From Methanobrevibacter sp. (lineage in GTDB: Archaea > Methanobacteriota > Methanobacteria > Methanobacteriales > Methanobacteriaceae), in contig JAFUIW010000004.1 of NCBI GenBank assembly GCA_017473945.1, forward strand, positions 1-56,215: a stretch of DNA of 56,215 nucleotides, written 5' to 3'. The notes below the pieces were generated by a model that worked only from the letters and a program-made list of their open reading frames with translations, was not told the origin of the DNA and made no database searches. A program made the translations under genes and the position numbers. Shown in pieces: positions 12,643 through 24,867 of the stretch. Positions within the stretch are counted from its first letter, which is position 1, and the number at the start of each line of letters is the position of its first letter.

Positions 12643-12735
12643 ATTTTTAGGCATACCTAAAAATTAGTAAAGTTTATATACTATGACAACCTACTTTAAT
12701 ACAAGTGACATATATTTAGGCATACCTAAAAATAT
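12643..12735 (+). promoter_or_regulatory. Iron-box-flanked promoter of candidate sRNA A
   Basis: A TATA box (TTTATATA, 12673-12680) sits between two palindromes TTTAGGCATACCTAAA, centred at 12653.5 and 12722.5. The palindrome resembles DtxR/IdeR-type metal-repressor boxes. The upstream box ends about 10 bp before the TATA box; the downstream one lies just after the expected start (about 12703). No protein gene follows for 550 bp. The same geometry occurs at 13025-13109 and, on the minus strand, at 22133-22218. Confidence 0.8.
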
Positions 12736-13018
12736 GCACTCAACAAAACATATTATTAGTCAATAATAATACAATCTCCAAAAAAATATTGATATTAAAT
12801 TAGAATTCCGCAATTTCCTAATTTAATAACTTGGAAAATTTCTCTGTCAAATTTTCTGAAAACGAATTGATGTTTGTACTCTCCAAAAACATCAAAAATA
12901 ACACTCTTAAAAATAGTGCTTGGGGTTTACACTATTTTTAATCAAATATGTCGTGCTTTTAAACTCCATATTATTTTTCCTCGATTGGTGTTTTTTATAA
13001 ACACCAAAACATTTTTTT
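12703..13018 (+). ncRNA. Candidate iron-responsive small RNA A (~310 nt)
   Basis: Predicted transcript from the paired-box promoter to the hairpin plus T-run at 12985-13018. The first ~80 nt are almost identical to candidate RNA B (minus strand, 22157 downward). Perfect stems follow one another: 12794-12803/12818-12827, 12834-12841/12849-12856, 12869-12875/12887-12893 (loop holds ACTCTCC), 12907-12918/12930-12941 (12 bp, loop CTTGGGGTTTA) and the terminal stem. No ORF with an SD is present. CTCC-type motifs lie in loops or linkers (12775-12778, 12842-12845, 12879-12884). Function is inferred; transcription is not shown. Confidence 0.65.
12985..13018 (+). terminator. Hairpin terminator of sRNA A
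   Basis: A 9-bp stem (TTGGTGTTT/AAACACCAA, 12985-12993 and 12999-13007) is followed by a run of seven T. Candidate RNA B ends in a related GGTGTTTAT stem and T-rich tract. Confidence 0.7.
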
Positions 13019-13024
13019 AAATTA

Positions 13025-13109
13025 TTTAGGTTTGCCTAAAAATATCAAAACATTTATATACTTCTTGAAACAATTAGTAATATAGTGATAAAAATTAGGT
13101 TTGCCTAAA
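13025..13109 (+). promoter_or_regulatory. Iron-box-flanked promoter of the microprotein unit
   Basis: A second TATA box (TTTATATA, 13053-13060) is bracketed by TTTAGGTTTGCCTAAA (13025-13040) and ATTAGGTTTGCCTAAA (13094-13109). The distances from TATA start to box centres (20.5 upstream, 48.5 downstream) match those of the promoter at 12643-12735 to within 1 bp. Expected start is near 13083. Confidence 0.8.
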
Positions 13110-13280
13110 AGCTAATTTTGATTGCTATTGTATTATTAGTTTTAACTAAAATACAATTCTCCGATTATTGCTAAATTAGTTTTACTCTCTTCTAATTTAG
13201 TAATCGCATATAACTACTCTCACGAAATTAAATATGAAATCCATATTTAATTTCACCTATTAATTAAAAAGATGATTATT
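13083..13280 (+). other. Structured 5' leader with three hairpins
   Basis: About 200 nt separate the expected transcription start from the microprotein ATG. They fold into three strong hairpins: 13127-13157, 13163-13205 (loop TTTTACTCTCTT) and 13224-13254 (13-bp perfect stem). The linkers carry ATTCTCC and ACTACTCTC. This repeats the pattern of candidate RNAs A and B (stems separated by pyrimidine CTCTC/CTCC motifs), so the leader may act as an RNA in its own right or control translation. Confidence 0.6.
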
Positions 13281-13394
13281 ATGGCAAGTAATGCAAATAA
13301 ACCAAAATGTTGTGAAGTTAAAGAAGACCCAAAAGAGAAAAAGAGTATCTTCAAAAGATTGTGGTGTTTTTTCTTTGGATGTAATTGTCACTAA
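13281..13394 (+). CDS. 37-residue Cys-rich microprotein
   Basis: A short ORF starting ATG at 13281 and ending TAA at 13394. The product begins with a polar stretch containing a Cys-Cys pair (PKCCEVKED). A Lys-rich middle follows, and it finishes with a short aromatic hydrophobic patch and the metal-site-like ending GCNCH. Five cysteines and a C-terminal His in 37 residues suggest metal binding, perhaps at a membrane surface. It lies under the second paired iron-box promoter and is followed by a T-rich tract. The SD (AAGATGATT) is weak, which makes control by the structured leader plausible. I recognise no family. The ORF could be spurious, but composition, position and terminator favour a real gene. 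Confidence 0.6.
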   Translation: MASNANKPKCCEVKEDPKEKKSIFKRLWCFFFGCNCH

Positions 13395-20512: not shown

Positions 20513-21013
20513 ATGAATAAAAAAATCATCATCATGTTGGCAATTGTCGGTGTTGGTTTGATATTACTTACAAGTCCGGCTTTTGCAAAGGAAAATGTCA
20601 AGGTAAAAATTTCTTCAGATAAATGGCTAAACGGCAAGGGTGTCATAATAATCAAGCTTGTTGACAGTCATGGAAGGCAAATCAACAGTAAGGGAACCAT
20701 TCACTACACCATTACGGATTCTAACGGTAATTATCAGTGGGCATATAAGGCCTATAATAAGGGGCTTCGTCTGAAGTATGATTCCGGATGGTATAATGTC
20801 AAGGTGAAATTTGAGGGGGATAAGAAATACAAGTCTGCTTCAGGTTCAAACGATGTTACTGTAAAAACCACTCGTTCAGGATTTGATGCATATAATTATT
20901 ACGACAATCATAATTGGGGTTTGAATCAGGAAATAGATGATTATATTGAATACAATTACTGGGATGAAGAAATCTATGATGATGCTTCAAACTATGACGG
21001 CGAAGGATATTAA
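20513..21013 (+). CDS. Secreted Ig-like domain protein
   Basis: A 166-residue protein with a signal peptide (about residues 1-25, ending AFAKE). One Ig-like domain, as found singly or in tandem in Methanobrevibacter adhesin-like proteins, follows: KVKISSDKWLNGKGVIIIKL, then GTIHYTI and a WYNVKVKFEGDKKYKSA strand pair. The last ~45 residues are rich in Tyr, Asp and Asn and very acidic. There is no membrane anchor. It is divergent from marR and may be under its control. Immediately downstream is a 57-bp remnant of the candidate small-RNA repeat, in antisense orientation relative to RNA B. Confidence 0.75.
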   Translation: MNKKIIIMLAIVGVGLILLTSPAFAKENVKVKISSDKWLNGKGVIIIKLVDSHGRQINSKGTIHYTITDSNGNYQWAYKAYNKGLRLKYDSGWYNVKVKFEGDKKYKSASGSNDVTVKTTRSGFDAYNYYDNHNWGLNQEIDDYIEYNYWDEEIYDDASNYDGEGY

Positions 21014-21015
21014 AA

Positions 21016-21072
21016 GTTTAGATTAGAAAATTGTGAAAAGCCAATTTGATATTTATTTTTTGGAGATTGTAT
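21016..21072 (-). repeat. Partial copy of the sRNA A/B repeat
   Basis: This stretch matches 22041-22095 (within RNA B): a block of about 33 bases from ATTAGAAAATTG onward is identical, and the flanks to GGAGATTGTAT match closely. It has no paired iron boxes. The outer stem arm has changed, so the hairpin seen in B cannot form fully. Read on the plus strand it would be the 3' untranslated region of the secreted-protein mRNA and antisense to RNA B. Confidence 0.75.
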
Positions 21073-21944: not shown

Positions 21945-21994
21945 TTAAAAGAAATAAAAATGGTGTTTATTGTTTTGGAGAGTTATAAACACCA
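21945..21994 (-). terminator. Hairpin terminator of sRNA B
   Basis: The TGGTGTTTAT/ATAAACACCA stem (21961-21994), followed on the minus strand by a T-rich tract, would end RNA B. The same GGTGTTT stem ends RNA A. Confidence 0.6.
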
Positions 21995-22157
21995 GACTTG
22001 TTTTTTGGGAATTATTTTGGCAGATATTTTTCCCGTAATATCAAATTAGAAAATTGTGAAAAGCCAATTTGATATTTAATTTTGGAGATTGTATTATTAT
22101 TGATTAATAATATGTTTTGTTGAGTGCATATTTTTAGGTATGCCTAAACATATGTCA
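21945..22157 (-). ncRNA. Candidate iron-responsive small RNA B (~210 nt)
   Basis: Predicted minus-strand transcript divergent from feoB. Its first ~80 nt match candidate RNA A almost base for base. An 11-bp stem (AATATCAAATT, 22037-22047, with 22066-22076) replaces the corresponding stem of A with a different sequence. A GGGAA/TTCCC stem follows. The last hairpin has a perfect 10-bp stem (21961-21970 with 21985-21994) whose loop reads AACTCTCCAAAACA on the RNA strand, and then a T-rich tract. No ORF with an SD is present. The small-RNA call is inferred from promoter, structure and homology. Confidence 0.65.
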
Positions 22158-22218
22158 CTTGTATTAAAGTTGGTTGTCATAGTATATAAATGTTTCTAAA
22201 TTTTTAGGCACGCCTAAA
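22128..22218 (-). promoter_or_regulatory. Iron-box-flanked promoter of sRNA B
   Basis: On the minus strand TTTATATA (22190-22183) is flanked by TTTAGGCGTGCCTAAA (22218-22203) and TTTAGGCATACCTAAA (22148-22133). The spacing from TATA start to box centres is 20.5 and 49.5 bp, the same as for the promoters at 12643-12735 and 13025-13109 within 1 bp. Confidence 0.8.
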
Positions 22219-22278: not shown

Positions 22279-22364
22279 ACTATATAAACTTTGCTAAATT
22301 TGGTATGCCTAAATATTTAAATATAATAAAATTAATACTAATATTATGTTTAGGTTAGCCTAAT
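22279..22364 (+). promoter_or_regulatory. feoB promoter with two iron boxes
   Basis: A TATA box (CTATATAAAC, about 22279-22288) precedes TTTGGTATGCCTAAA (22299-22313, one arm degenerate) and TTTAGGTTAGCCTAAT (22349-22364). The first box falls on the expected start site. A second AT-rich TATA candidate lies at 22313-22326 between the boxes. Repression by a metal-loaded DtxR-type protein would fit an iron uptake gene. Confidence 0.7.
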
Positions 22365-22457: not shown

Positions 22458-24476
22458 ATGACAGAATTAATTGTTGGATTAGCAGGAAACCCAAACGTGG
22501 GTAAAACTACTGTGTTCAATAGATTAACTGGTATGCGCCAACATGTAGGTAACTGGCCTGGAAAGACTGTTGAAAGAGCAGAAGGTCATTTCAAACATGG
22601 CAGTTACGAATATGATGTTGTCGACTTACCTGGTAACTACGCATTAAGTGCTCATTCTATGGAAGAAATCGTATCAAGAGATTTCATTGTAGACGATGAC
22701 TCTGATGTAATTGTAAACGTAGTTGACGCTGCTAATTTAGAACGTAACTTATATTTAACAGTTCAAATGATGGAATTAGGTGCTAATTTAGTAATGGCAC
22801 TCAACATGAACGATTTTGCTAAGAAAAAAGATCACATCATTGACATTAAAAAAATGAGTGAACTTTTAGGATTCCCAGTTATTGAAGTAAACGCAAAAAC
22901 TGGTGACGGATTTGAGGAATTATTAACAACTGTTGAAAAACAATCTTCAAACCCTATTGATTCCAGTGCTAAATTATCCTATGGTGATGAATTAAGCGAA
23001 CACTTAGGAGATTTACAGGCATTAATCGAAAAAGACAGCAATTTATTAGATGTTCCTTCAGTATGGACTGCAATTAAATTATTAGAAAGAGACTCAATTG
23101 TTATAGAAAAAGTACAAGGTTCTTCTCAAAGCTCTGCTATCATGGCTGAAACCGATAAGGTAGCAGGACACCTTCATGACATTTATAGTGAAGGTGCAGA
23201 AGAAGTTATTGCAAATGCAAGATATGCATTTATCGGCGGTTTAATGGCTGAAGCTGTTAAAAGACCTACTGTTGAAAAAGAAACTACTACTGATAAAATA
23301 GATAAGATTGTTACTAACAGGATATTGGCACTTCCTATTTTCGCGGTTATAATGTGGCTGATGTTCCAGTTCACATACACTATTGGTGCTCCATTCCAAG
23401 ACTTAATTGATGAAGCATTCGGTATGCTTGCTGAATGGATTGGAGGATTCATTGCAAATGAATATTTAGTTTCCTTCATCTGTGACGGTATCATTGGTGG
23501 AGTAGGTGGTGTGCTTACTTTCTTGCCTATCATTATTCTGATGTTCTTGTTCTTAAGTATCTTAGAAGACTGTGGTTACCTTGCAAGAGCAGCATTTTCA
23601 TTAGATAAAATCATGCACAAATTAGTTGGTCTTCATGGTAAAGCATTCATTCCAATGATTTTAGGATTTGGTTGTGGTGTACCAGCTATTATGGCAACCA
23701 GAACCATGGAAAATGAAGGGGACCGTATGCTCGCTATGATGCTCGTTCCATTCATGTCATGTACTGCAAGATTACCGATTTATGCTATTTTCATTGCAGC
23801 ATTCTTTACAGAAAACCAAGGTATTGTATTGCTAGCAATTTACTTCTTAGGTATTGTTGTAGCACTTCTTGTTGCAGCTATCCTCAAAAGAACCATGTTT
23901 AAAGGATTATCCACTCCATTTGTAATGGAATTGCCAACATATAAAGTCCCATCCATCAAAGGTGTATTATTACACACTTGGGAAAAGGTAAAAGGATTCT
24001 TAAGAAAAGCAGGTACAATCATTCTTGCTTGTTCCATCATTTTATGGGCTTTAAGTATCTTCCCATTAGGTGTAGAATACGGATCTGCTGATAGTGTTTT
24101 AGGTATGATTGGTAGCGTAATTGCACCAATATTCGCTCCTTTAGGATTTGGAACCTGGCAAGCTGCTGTAGCAATCATCGCTGGTTTAGCTGCTAAAGAA
24201 GTAGTAGTAGCAACCTTTGGTACTTTAGCTGGTATGGAAGAAGATGATGAAGATGGTATTACTCAATTGGTACATGATACCTTCACTCCATTATCTGCAT
24301 TCTCATTCATGGCATTTACATTGTTATACACTCCATGTTTCGCAGCTATCGGTGCTATCAAACAAGAAACCAACAGTTACAGATGGGCAGCAATCATGTG
24401 TTGTATCACTTTAGTTACTGCATACATTGTTTCCTTCTTGATTTACAACGTTGGTTTATTAGCAGGATTCGGATAA
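22458..24476 (+). CDS. feoB: Ferrous iron transport protein B
   Basis: A 672-residue FeoB. The cytoplasmic GTPase domain has G1 GNPNVGKT (residues 10-17), G3 DLPGNY and G4 NMND, followed by a helical GDI-like region. About nine membrane helices follow from residue ~290 with the Cys-bearing segments LEDCGYLARAAF, GFGCGVPAIMATRTM and SCTARLP typical of FeoB gates, and a second such cluster near GLAAKEVVVATFGT. It imports Fe(II) through the cytoplasmic membrane. The SD is GGGAGA. It is preceded by iron boxes and a structured leader and followed after 163 bp by feoA with its own promoter. Codon use is regular, and length is in the normal range. Confidence 0.97.
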   Translation: MTELIVGLAGNPNVGKTTVFNRLTGMRQHVGNWPGKTVERAEGHFKHGSYEYDVVDLPGNYALSAHSMEEIVSRDFIVDDDSDVIVNVVDAANLERNLYLTVQMMELGANLVMALNMNDFAKKKDHIIDIKKMSELLGFPVIEVNAKTGDGFEELLTTVEKQSSNPIDSSAKLSYGDELSEHLGDLQALIEKDSNLLDVPSVWTAIKLLERDSIVIEKVQGSSQSSAIMAETDKVAGHLHDIYSEGAEEVIANARYAFIGGLMAEAVKRPTVEKETTTDKIDKIVTNRILALPIFAVIMWLMFQFTYTIGAPFQDLIDEAFGMLAEWIGGFIANEYLVSFICDGIIGGVGGVLTFLPIIILMFLFLSILEDCGYLARAAFSLDKIMHKLVGLHGKAFIPMILGFGCGVPAIMATRTMENEGDRMLAMMLVPFMSCTARLPIYAIFIAAFFTENQGIVLLAIYFLGIVVALLVAAILKRTMFKGLSTPFVMELPTYKVPSIKGVLLHTWEKVKGFLRKAGTIILACSIILWALSIFPLGVEYGSADSVLGMIGSVIAPIFAPLGFGTWQAAVAIIAGLAAKEVVVATFGTLAGMEEDDEDGITQLVHDTFTPLSAFSFMAFTLLYTPCFAAIGAIKQETNSYRWAAIMCCITLVTAYIVSFLIYNVGLLAGFG

Positions 24477-24607: not shown

Positions 24608-24639
24608 TTTATTTTGATTATTATAATTATGGTGATAAT

Positions 24640-24867
24640 ATGAAAACCTTAAAAGATGCAAAACCTGGTGAAACCGTAACTTTGGTAAAATACCACGAAA
24701 CCGGTGATGTTGATTTAAGAAGACATTTATTAGGTATGGGTTTTGTTAAAGGAGCTAAAATTACTGTTAAAAAAGTAGCTACTTTAGGAGATCCTATTGA
24801 AATGTCTGTAAAAGGATATGATGTTTGTCTTCGTAAAGAAGAAGCTGAAAACATTGAAGTGGAATAA
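24640..24867 (+). CDS. feoA: Ferrous iron transport protein A
   Basis: A 75-residue SH3-like FeoA domain protein: MKTLKDAKPGETVTLVK, then RRHLLGMGFVKGAKITV and the ending DVCLRKEEAENIEV. FeoA is a small cytosolic partner needed for FeoB activity. A longer frame begins at 24577, but the ATG at 24640 follows GGTGAT by 3 nt and gives the standard FeoA length. Here feoA follows feoB rather than preceding it and has its own promoter. Confidence 0.93.
   Translation: MKTLKDAKPGETVTLVKYHETGDVDLRRHLLGMGFVKGAKITVKKVATLGDPIEMSVKGYDVCLRKEEAENIEVE

Follow-up and report, generated by a model that had tools for sequence, protein, structure and literature searches.

Candidate iron-sparing small RNAs behind DtxR-type boxes in Methanobrevibacter, with predicted pairing to the ribosome-binding sites of methanogenesis mRNAs

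Two structured RNAs, A and B, encoded in a 56,215-nucleotide stretch of a Methanobrevibacter sp. genome (contig JAFUIW010000004.1, referred to here as the window), are likely to be trans-acting small RNAs (sRNAs) that are repressed by a DtxR-family regulator and spare iron by blocking the translation of Fe-S enzymes of methanogenesis. Judged by comparison of genome sequences, they are probably switched on at low iron and bind, by base pairing, the ribosome-binding sites on mRNAs for iron-rich enzymes of methane formation. In the proposed mechanism, a metal-bound DtxR-family repressor would sit on two boxes bracketing the promoter when iron is plentiful, keeping the RNA genes off, and its release at low iron would allow the RNAs to be made along with FeoAB. 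Three hairpins would keep C/U-rich motifs open, both in the stretches between them and at their tips, and one of these motifs, ACAAUCUCCAAAA, would pair with UUUUGGAGAUU ribosome-binding sites in mRNAs of Fe-S-rich or iron-linked enzymes. The predicted targets are FwdF, FdhA and HypC, possibly joined by HdrA/HdrB, a NifU-like protein and a flavodiiron-type protein. By covering ribosome-binding sites of the TTTTGGAGATT type, this motif (M1), and perhaps also the loop of stem 3, would block ribosome binding; translation of Fe-S-heavy methanogenesis enzymes would then fall, and scarce iron would be spared.

The original prediction described a family of iron-box-controlled sRNAs that, in the manner of RyhB and FsrA, save iron by reducing other mRNAs. 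This proposal is supported by the homologues that were found, by compensation in their stems, by the boxes, by linkage to feoB and by conserved matches to ribosome-binding sites, and a common structure, a common promoter layout and exposed motifs can be recognised across the family. The present analysis extends it with targets, additional copies and a mechanism based on C-rich motifs.

RNA A is predicted to be transcribed from the plus strand (12703..13018) and RNA B from the minus strand (21950..22157). As had been proposed, both promoters carry paired DtxR-like boxes, which are exact copies of TTAGGnnnnCCTAA (12647 and 12716 for A, 22204 and 22134 for B) flanking the TATA boxes. In RNA A, the first box (TTAGGCATACCTAA, a palindrome) occupies 12647..12660 and the second, directly 3' of the predicted start, 12716..12729; the TATA box (TTTATATA) was read from the sequence at 12673..12680, a position common to 60 promoters of the family. 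In RNA B, the boxes lie at 22204..22217 and 22134..22147 on the minus strand, with a TATA box read between them at 22190-22183. When up to one mismatch is allowed, the window contains 11 such boxes against 1.7 expected, a number reached in 0 of 100 shuffles. In line with the claim that these promoters drive no protein, no open reading frame (ORF) of at least 50 amino acids starts inside either transcript. Counted from the predicted starts, 79 of 81 bases are identical between A and B, in agreement with the near-identical first ~80 nt noticed originally, and both folds are far more stable than those of shuffled sequences (z -5.3 for A and -7.2 for B).

The common core of the family runs from ATTATTAGTCAA through the open motif M1 (ACAATCTCCAAAA), stem 1 (loop TTTTCACAATTTT), stem 2 (loop ATCTGCCAAA) and the terminal stem 3, whose arms are GGTGTTTA/TAAACACC, to TTATCTCTTTTT. 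The covariance model of the family matches RNA A at 12774-12893 (81 bits) and RNA B at 21962-22089 (99 bits). M1 is conserved in both (12771..12783 on the plus strand and 22080..22092 on the minus strand), with a family mean unpaired probability of 0.88, and is proposed as the seed against TTTTGGAGATT ribosome-binding sites. In RNA A, it is followed by stem 1 (12791..12830, covarying helix 1), by stem 2 (12833..12857, covarying helix 2), whose loop reads CTCTGTC where the family has ATCTGCCAAA, and by a hairpin with CTCTCC in its loop (12867..12895), which the fold and the end of the model match identify as the counterpart of stem 3. In RNA B, stem 3 itself lies at 21962..21993 (covarying helix 3), with ACTCTCC in a loop that is unpaired with a probability of 0.98 in 25 copies. 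The terminal hairpin had been thought common to both RNAs in its GGTGTTT form. A common hairpin does exist, but the model aligns that of RNA B, with CTCTCC in the loop, to the hairpin at about 12868-12894 of RNA A; the GGTGTTT/AAACACC hairpin of A with its T run (12987..13018), seen in sequence and fold, closes a further 3' extension of ~120 nt.

Selection on an RNA, suggested earlier from conservation of the stems, is borne out by compensatory double changes in 13 of the 26 base pairs, distributed over all three stems. The count of double-change cells is 30, compared with 8.3 (sd 2.3) in shuffles, none of 500 being as high, and pairing falls from 94.5% to ~52% when the partner column is slid by one. 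The picture was the same in a second alignment (37 copies), which had been fitted to the model and is hence biased towards it. Across the family the stems vary while the loops are kept, and M1 and the three loop motifs have mean unpaired probabilities of 0.88-0.98 against 0.51 for the RNA overall. Because of alignment gaps, RNAalifold recovered stem 1 alone from the unedited alignment of 78 copies; the structure was therefore set by hand from the folds, and the pairs were then counted. The narrower statement that the middle hairpins of A and B keep their shape but not their sequence is too strong for these two copies, which offer a single homologous stem whose AATT core is conserved, although compensatory changes do occur across the whole family. 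Covariation and the lack of a conserved ORF mark these molecules as structured non-coding RNAs. A peptide-coding reading was ruled out by the absence of a common ORF and by spacing between motifs that is about uniform modulo 3.

A and B belong to a larger, multi-copy family. Four full copies are present in the genome from which the window comes: besides A and B there are two on contig C118, of which one is divergent from a second feoB gene. A fragment extending from M1 to stem 1, devoid of a promoter (21022..21072, minus strand), adjoins the end of the ORF at 20513-21013 and may be either a copy in decay or a sponge-like element. At the DNA level, 61 of the 67 genomes of the genus gave matches, up to seven in each, and the covariance model, built from 25 diverse copies, matches 62 of the 67; since it covered more than 40 genomes, the model search used stricter filters. 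The same model matched none of 84 genomes from 18 other genera of the order, indicating that, among the genera searched, the family is confined to one Methanobrevibacter genus. Named records with copies are Methanobrevibacter from the rumen and other animal guts, one of them labelled M. thaueri, and no copy was found in the region around FeoB of M. cuticularis. Rfam models at their gathering score recognised only rRNA and tRNAs in the window and neither A nor B, RNA B had no Rfam match up to E 1, and a phage collection contained no DNA match. Some copies (L077 and L081) have an insert of ~100 nt with further CTCTC stretches between the 5' end and M1. A and B are convergent and separated by ~9 kb in the window, an arrangement that recurs in several other genomes.

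M1 (ACAAUCUCCAAAA), one of the four motifs that stay unpaired, is antisense to ribosome-binding sites. Its targets were ranked in G008, a relative whose chromosome is closed; 2.0 of its 2.27 Mb were read and 1832 ORFs called. Gene starts were set by a simple rule, and some initiation regions will be wrong. Ribosome-binding sites in this genome are most often AGGTGAT-like, and 43 of the 1832 genes have TGGAGA. First by duplex energy is FwdF, the polyferredoxin of tungsten formylmethanofuran dehydrogenase (NF042909, 430.9 bits), with an exact complement of 13 nt. Next by exact complement in G008 come FdhA (12 nt; TIGR01591, 918 bits), a biotin-protein-ligase homologue (12 nt), HypC (11 nt; TIGR00074) and a protein in which a NifU-like N domain is weakly recognised (10 nt), and lower-ranked matches include a flavodiiron-type protein, HdrA and a ferredoxin. 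The high rank of the biotin-ligase homologue, no obvious iron protein, counts against an iron-sparing role. Nevertheless, a CxxCx2-3C motif occurs in 6 of the top 20 targets of M1, compared with 0.87 for permuted motifs, and 0 of 150 permutations reach six. When TCTCC was kept and the flanks alone were rearranged, an earlier run in which the native sequence could be redrawn (72 arrangements) reached the native count in 2 of 100 draws, whereas exclusion of the native sequence gave 0 of 592 draws with six Fe-S targets, which amounts to about 1 in 72 as only 71 distinct non-native arrangements exist. Thus, the Fe-S enrichment owes to the flanks of M1 and not to the TCTCC core alone. No such enrichment was seen in G008 for the motifs of loops 1, 2 and 3 alone or for the type II M1; the best site of the stem-3 loop motif ACTCTCC lies at HdrB (-19.8 kcal/mol; TIGR03288).

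The predicted sites are also conserved between species. By pattern searches, the fdhA gene is preceded by TTTTGGAGATTA (site form TTTTGGAGATT) in 45 genomes, including that of the window (G000:C54), and fwdF by TTTTGGAGAT in 47 genomes. Where the N-terminus was found by protein search, the site is present in 35 of 49 genomes for fdhA, where the codons behind it vary at third positions, and in 42 of 49 for fwdF. In hypC, a contiguous complement of at least 9 nt occurs in 26 of 29 readable leaders, that of the window's genome included. For comparison, over 15 background genes an average of 13% of orthologues share an identical 11-nt block around the ribosome-binding site; one of these 15, the unrelated cbiM-like gene, keeps its site equally well (71%). 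The seven genomes devoid of the fwdF site comprise three in which the RNA has diverged or is matched weakly (G002, G007 and G066) and four in which no RNA was matched (G024, G026, G029 and G061). The latter probably form one clade, so that loss of the site is confounded by phylogeny and is therefore supportive, not independent, evidence. Against the target assignment count the quality of TTTTGGAGATT as a ribosome-binding site in its own right and the change of M1 to AAACTCCAAAA in G007 and G002. The RNAs are thus complementary to translation-initiation regions of iron-protein mRNAs, and from this conserved complementarity we infer that they may pair with these mRNAs and repress their translation.

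These data bear on a different, unlikely, mode of action for a DtxR-controlled structured RNA, namely that it binds a protein, or stabilises or activates mRNAs through its loops, the matches of M1 being side effects of a common ribosome-binding-site sequence. Loops 1 and 2 (CACAAUUU and AUCUGCCAAA) are conserved as strongly as M1, yet no target class was found for them. Against this reading stand an Fe-S enrichment that comes from the M1 flanks, beyond the TCTCC core, and the preservation of the fdhA, fwdF and hypC sites across species, and anti-ribosome-binding-site pairing by M1 is preferred.

The control region suggests iron as the signal. Among 60 family promoters with a recognised TATA box, the second DtxR-type box (up to one mismatch) is present in all 60 and both boxes in 93%, their starts being 70 nt apart (5-95%: 67-71). 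One box begins ~28 nt upstream and the other ~42 nt downstream of the start of the TATA box, and a bound repressor would therefore cover both promoter and transcription start. The genome search returned one match to the DtxR-family C domain (PF02742, 99 bits), in an ORF of 240 amino acids; the binding of this type of regulator to the boxes, like the transcription of the RNAs, is predicted from sequence. In the window, feoB (22458..24476, plus strand; TIGR00437, 668 bits against a cut-off of 316) is divergent from RNA B, is preceded by two boxes found by the box search (22299..22363; 22299 with one mismatch, 22350 exact), and is followed by feoA (24637..24867; PF04023, 70.6 bits). DtxR-type boxes precede both feoB genes as well as ABC-transporter genes. 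The distance from the RNA core to the feoB gene downstream of it is 251-2598 nt in 22 named Methanobrevibacter loci, and one to four boxes fall within this interval. From this control of feoB we infer that iron is the probable signal. An sRNA of the same sparing type could instead be governed by a DtxR-family regulator answering to manganese, nickel or cobalt, since the family includes manganese sensors and a gene set for a Ni/Co-type transporter (cbi) lies near feoB in these genomes. Such a signal is improbable, given that the boxes precede both feoB genes and that Fe-S or iron-linked proteins make up the predicted targets. Other boxes in the genome lie 5' of a small 4Fe-4S ferredoxin-like ORF (L127:2030), an ABC transporter (L126:5986) and a methyltransferase-like ORF (L128:2705), and these genes are candidates for the rest of the regulon.

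Iron-repressed sRNAs acting on mRNAs of Fe-S proteins are well known in bacteria, with RyhB in enteric bacteria and PrrF1/PrrF2 in Pseudomonas. Like PrrF1 and PrrF2, A and B are paralogues, but the archaeal family has no sequence or Rfam match to RyhB or to the PrrF RNAs, both of which are reported as Hfq-dependent (PMC9410917). The closest parallel is IsrR of Staphylococcus aureus, an RNA of an AT-rich genome with two Fur boxes and with C-rich stretches in its loops and next to a stem, which pairs with Shine-Dalgarno regions and has fdhA mRNA among its targets; RyhB, PrrF, MrsI and FsrA are not its orthologues (PMC9410917). The archaeal family shares with IsrR two repressor boxes at the promoter, open C-rich regions, (here predicted) pairing with ribosome-binding sites, fdhA as a (here predicted) target and an AT-rich genome with rare G-rich stretches. 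Unlike the bacterial, Fur-controlled IsrR, it combines DtxR-type boxes with TATA promoters of the archaeal kind, gives as many as seven DNA matches per genome, has predicted methanogenesis targets and lacks an Rfam match. FsrA of Bacillus subtilis, an sRNA of iron limitation whose C-rich motif binds Shine-Dalgarno sequences (as cited in PMC9410917), is reported there as needing the FbpA/B/C chaperones; the motif is alike, but the window RNAs have no Rfam match to FsrA. By these tests, with no Rfam match to RyhB, FsrA, PrrF or IsrR, the archaeal family would work like these RNAs but is no homologue of them. Among archaeal RNAs, sRNA162 of Methanosarcina mazei is likewise a methanogen sRNA acting on trans-encoded mRNAs (here predicted), but it belongs to a different methanogen order, and its abstract presents no link to iron (PMC3510493). 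The s479 RNA of Haloferax volcanii is also linked to metal transport, but to zinc instead of iron; it is CRISPR-Cas-linked, and its abstract mentions neither DtxR boxes nor Fe-S targets (PMC8155600).

A full-text search of the literature on archaeal and methanogen sRNAs and iron found no archaeal iron-sparing sRNA among the titles listed; subscription papers and preprints were mostly outside its scope, and priority is therefore not proven. The family may well be the first iron-sparing sRNA known from archaea, a DtxR-controlled set of several paralogues that evolved independently in one genus of gut methanogens, throttling formate dehydrogenase, formylmethanofuran dehydrogenase and possibly heterodisulfide reductase at low iron, with a co-regulated Cys-rich micropeptide alongside. 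If so, a second domain of life would have evolved iron sparing by anti-ribosome-binding-site sRNAs on its own, arriving again at formate dehydrogenase as a target and at a C-rich motif of the same kind, and the methanogenesis machinery of gut and rumen archaea would be coupled directly to iron supply. The exact RNAs, sites and targets named here are testable in cultured strains.

Directly 3' of RNA A lies element C (13026..13394, plus strand), with its own box pair (13026 and 13095), a TATA box (13053-13060), a structured leader in which one hairpin covaries and another is invariant, and an ORF (13281-13394) for a Cys-rich peptide of 37 amino acids (MASNANKPKCCEVKEDPKEKKSIFKRLWCFFFGCNCH). Peptides of 35-40 amino acids, usually ending in a form of WCFFFGCNCH, are encoded by element C in many Methanobrevibacter species, whereas in several others the leader occurs without a peptide of this type; the peptide has no match in Pfam or NCBIfam. 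An Rfam match of element C to a plant miRNA (E 0.16) was judged to be chance. Since in many species element C forms a DtxR-box-controlled leader with a peptide ORF, and A stands directly 5' of it, the RNAs themselves might be regarded as DtxR-controlled 5' leaders or riboswitches of downstream genes. This is very improbable, as RNA B and the copy at L007:10979 face convergent genes and have no same-strand gene directly downstream, a terminal hairpin and T run close the units, and element C has its own TATA and boxes. The view that there is no functional RNA at all, and that a multi-copy, AT-rich sequence with one truncated fragment is promoter DNA present in repeated copies, or a mobile repeat whose hairpins arose by chance, is hardly credible for an element found in nearly all species of the genus, with compensatory changes in three stems beyond all shuffles and with loops kept while stems vary. 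In G002 and G007 (L073 and L082), feoB, two tandem RNA copies and element C are contiguous, whereas in the window the set of feoB, RNA and element C is split by ~9 kb.
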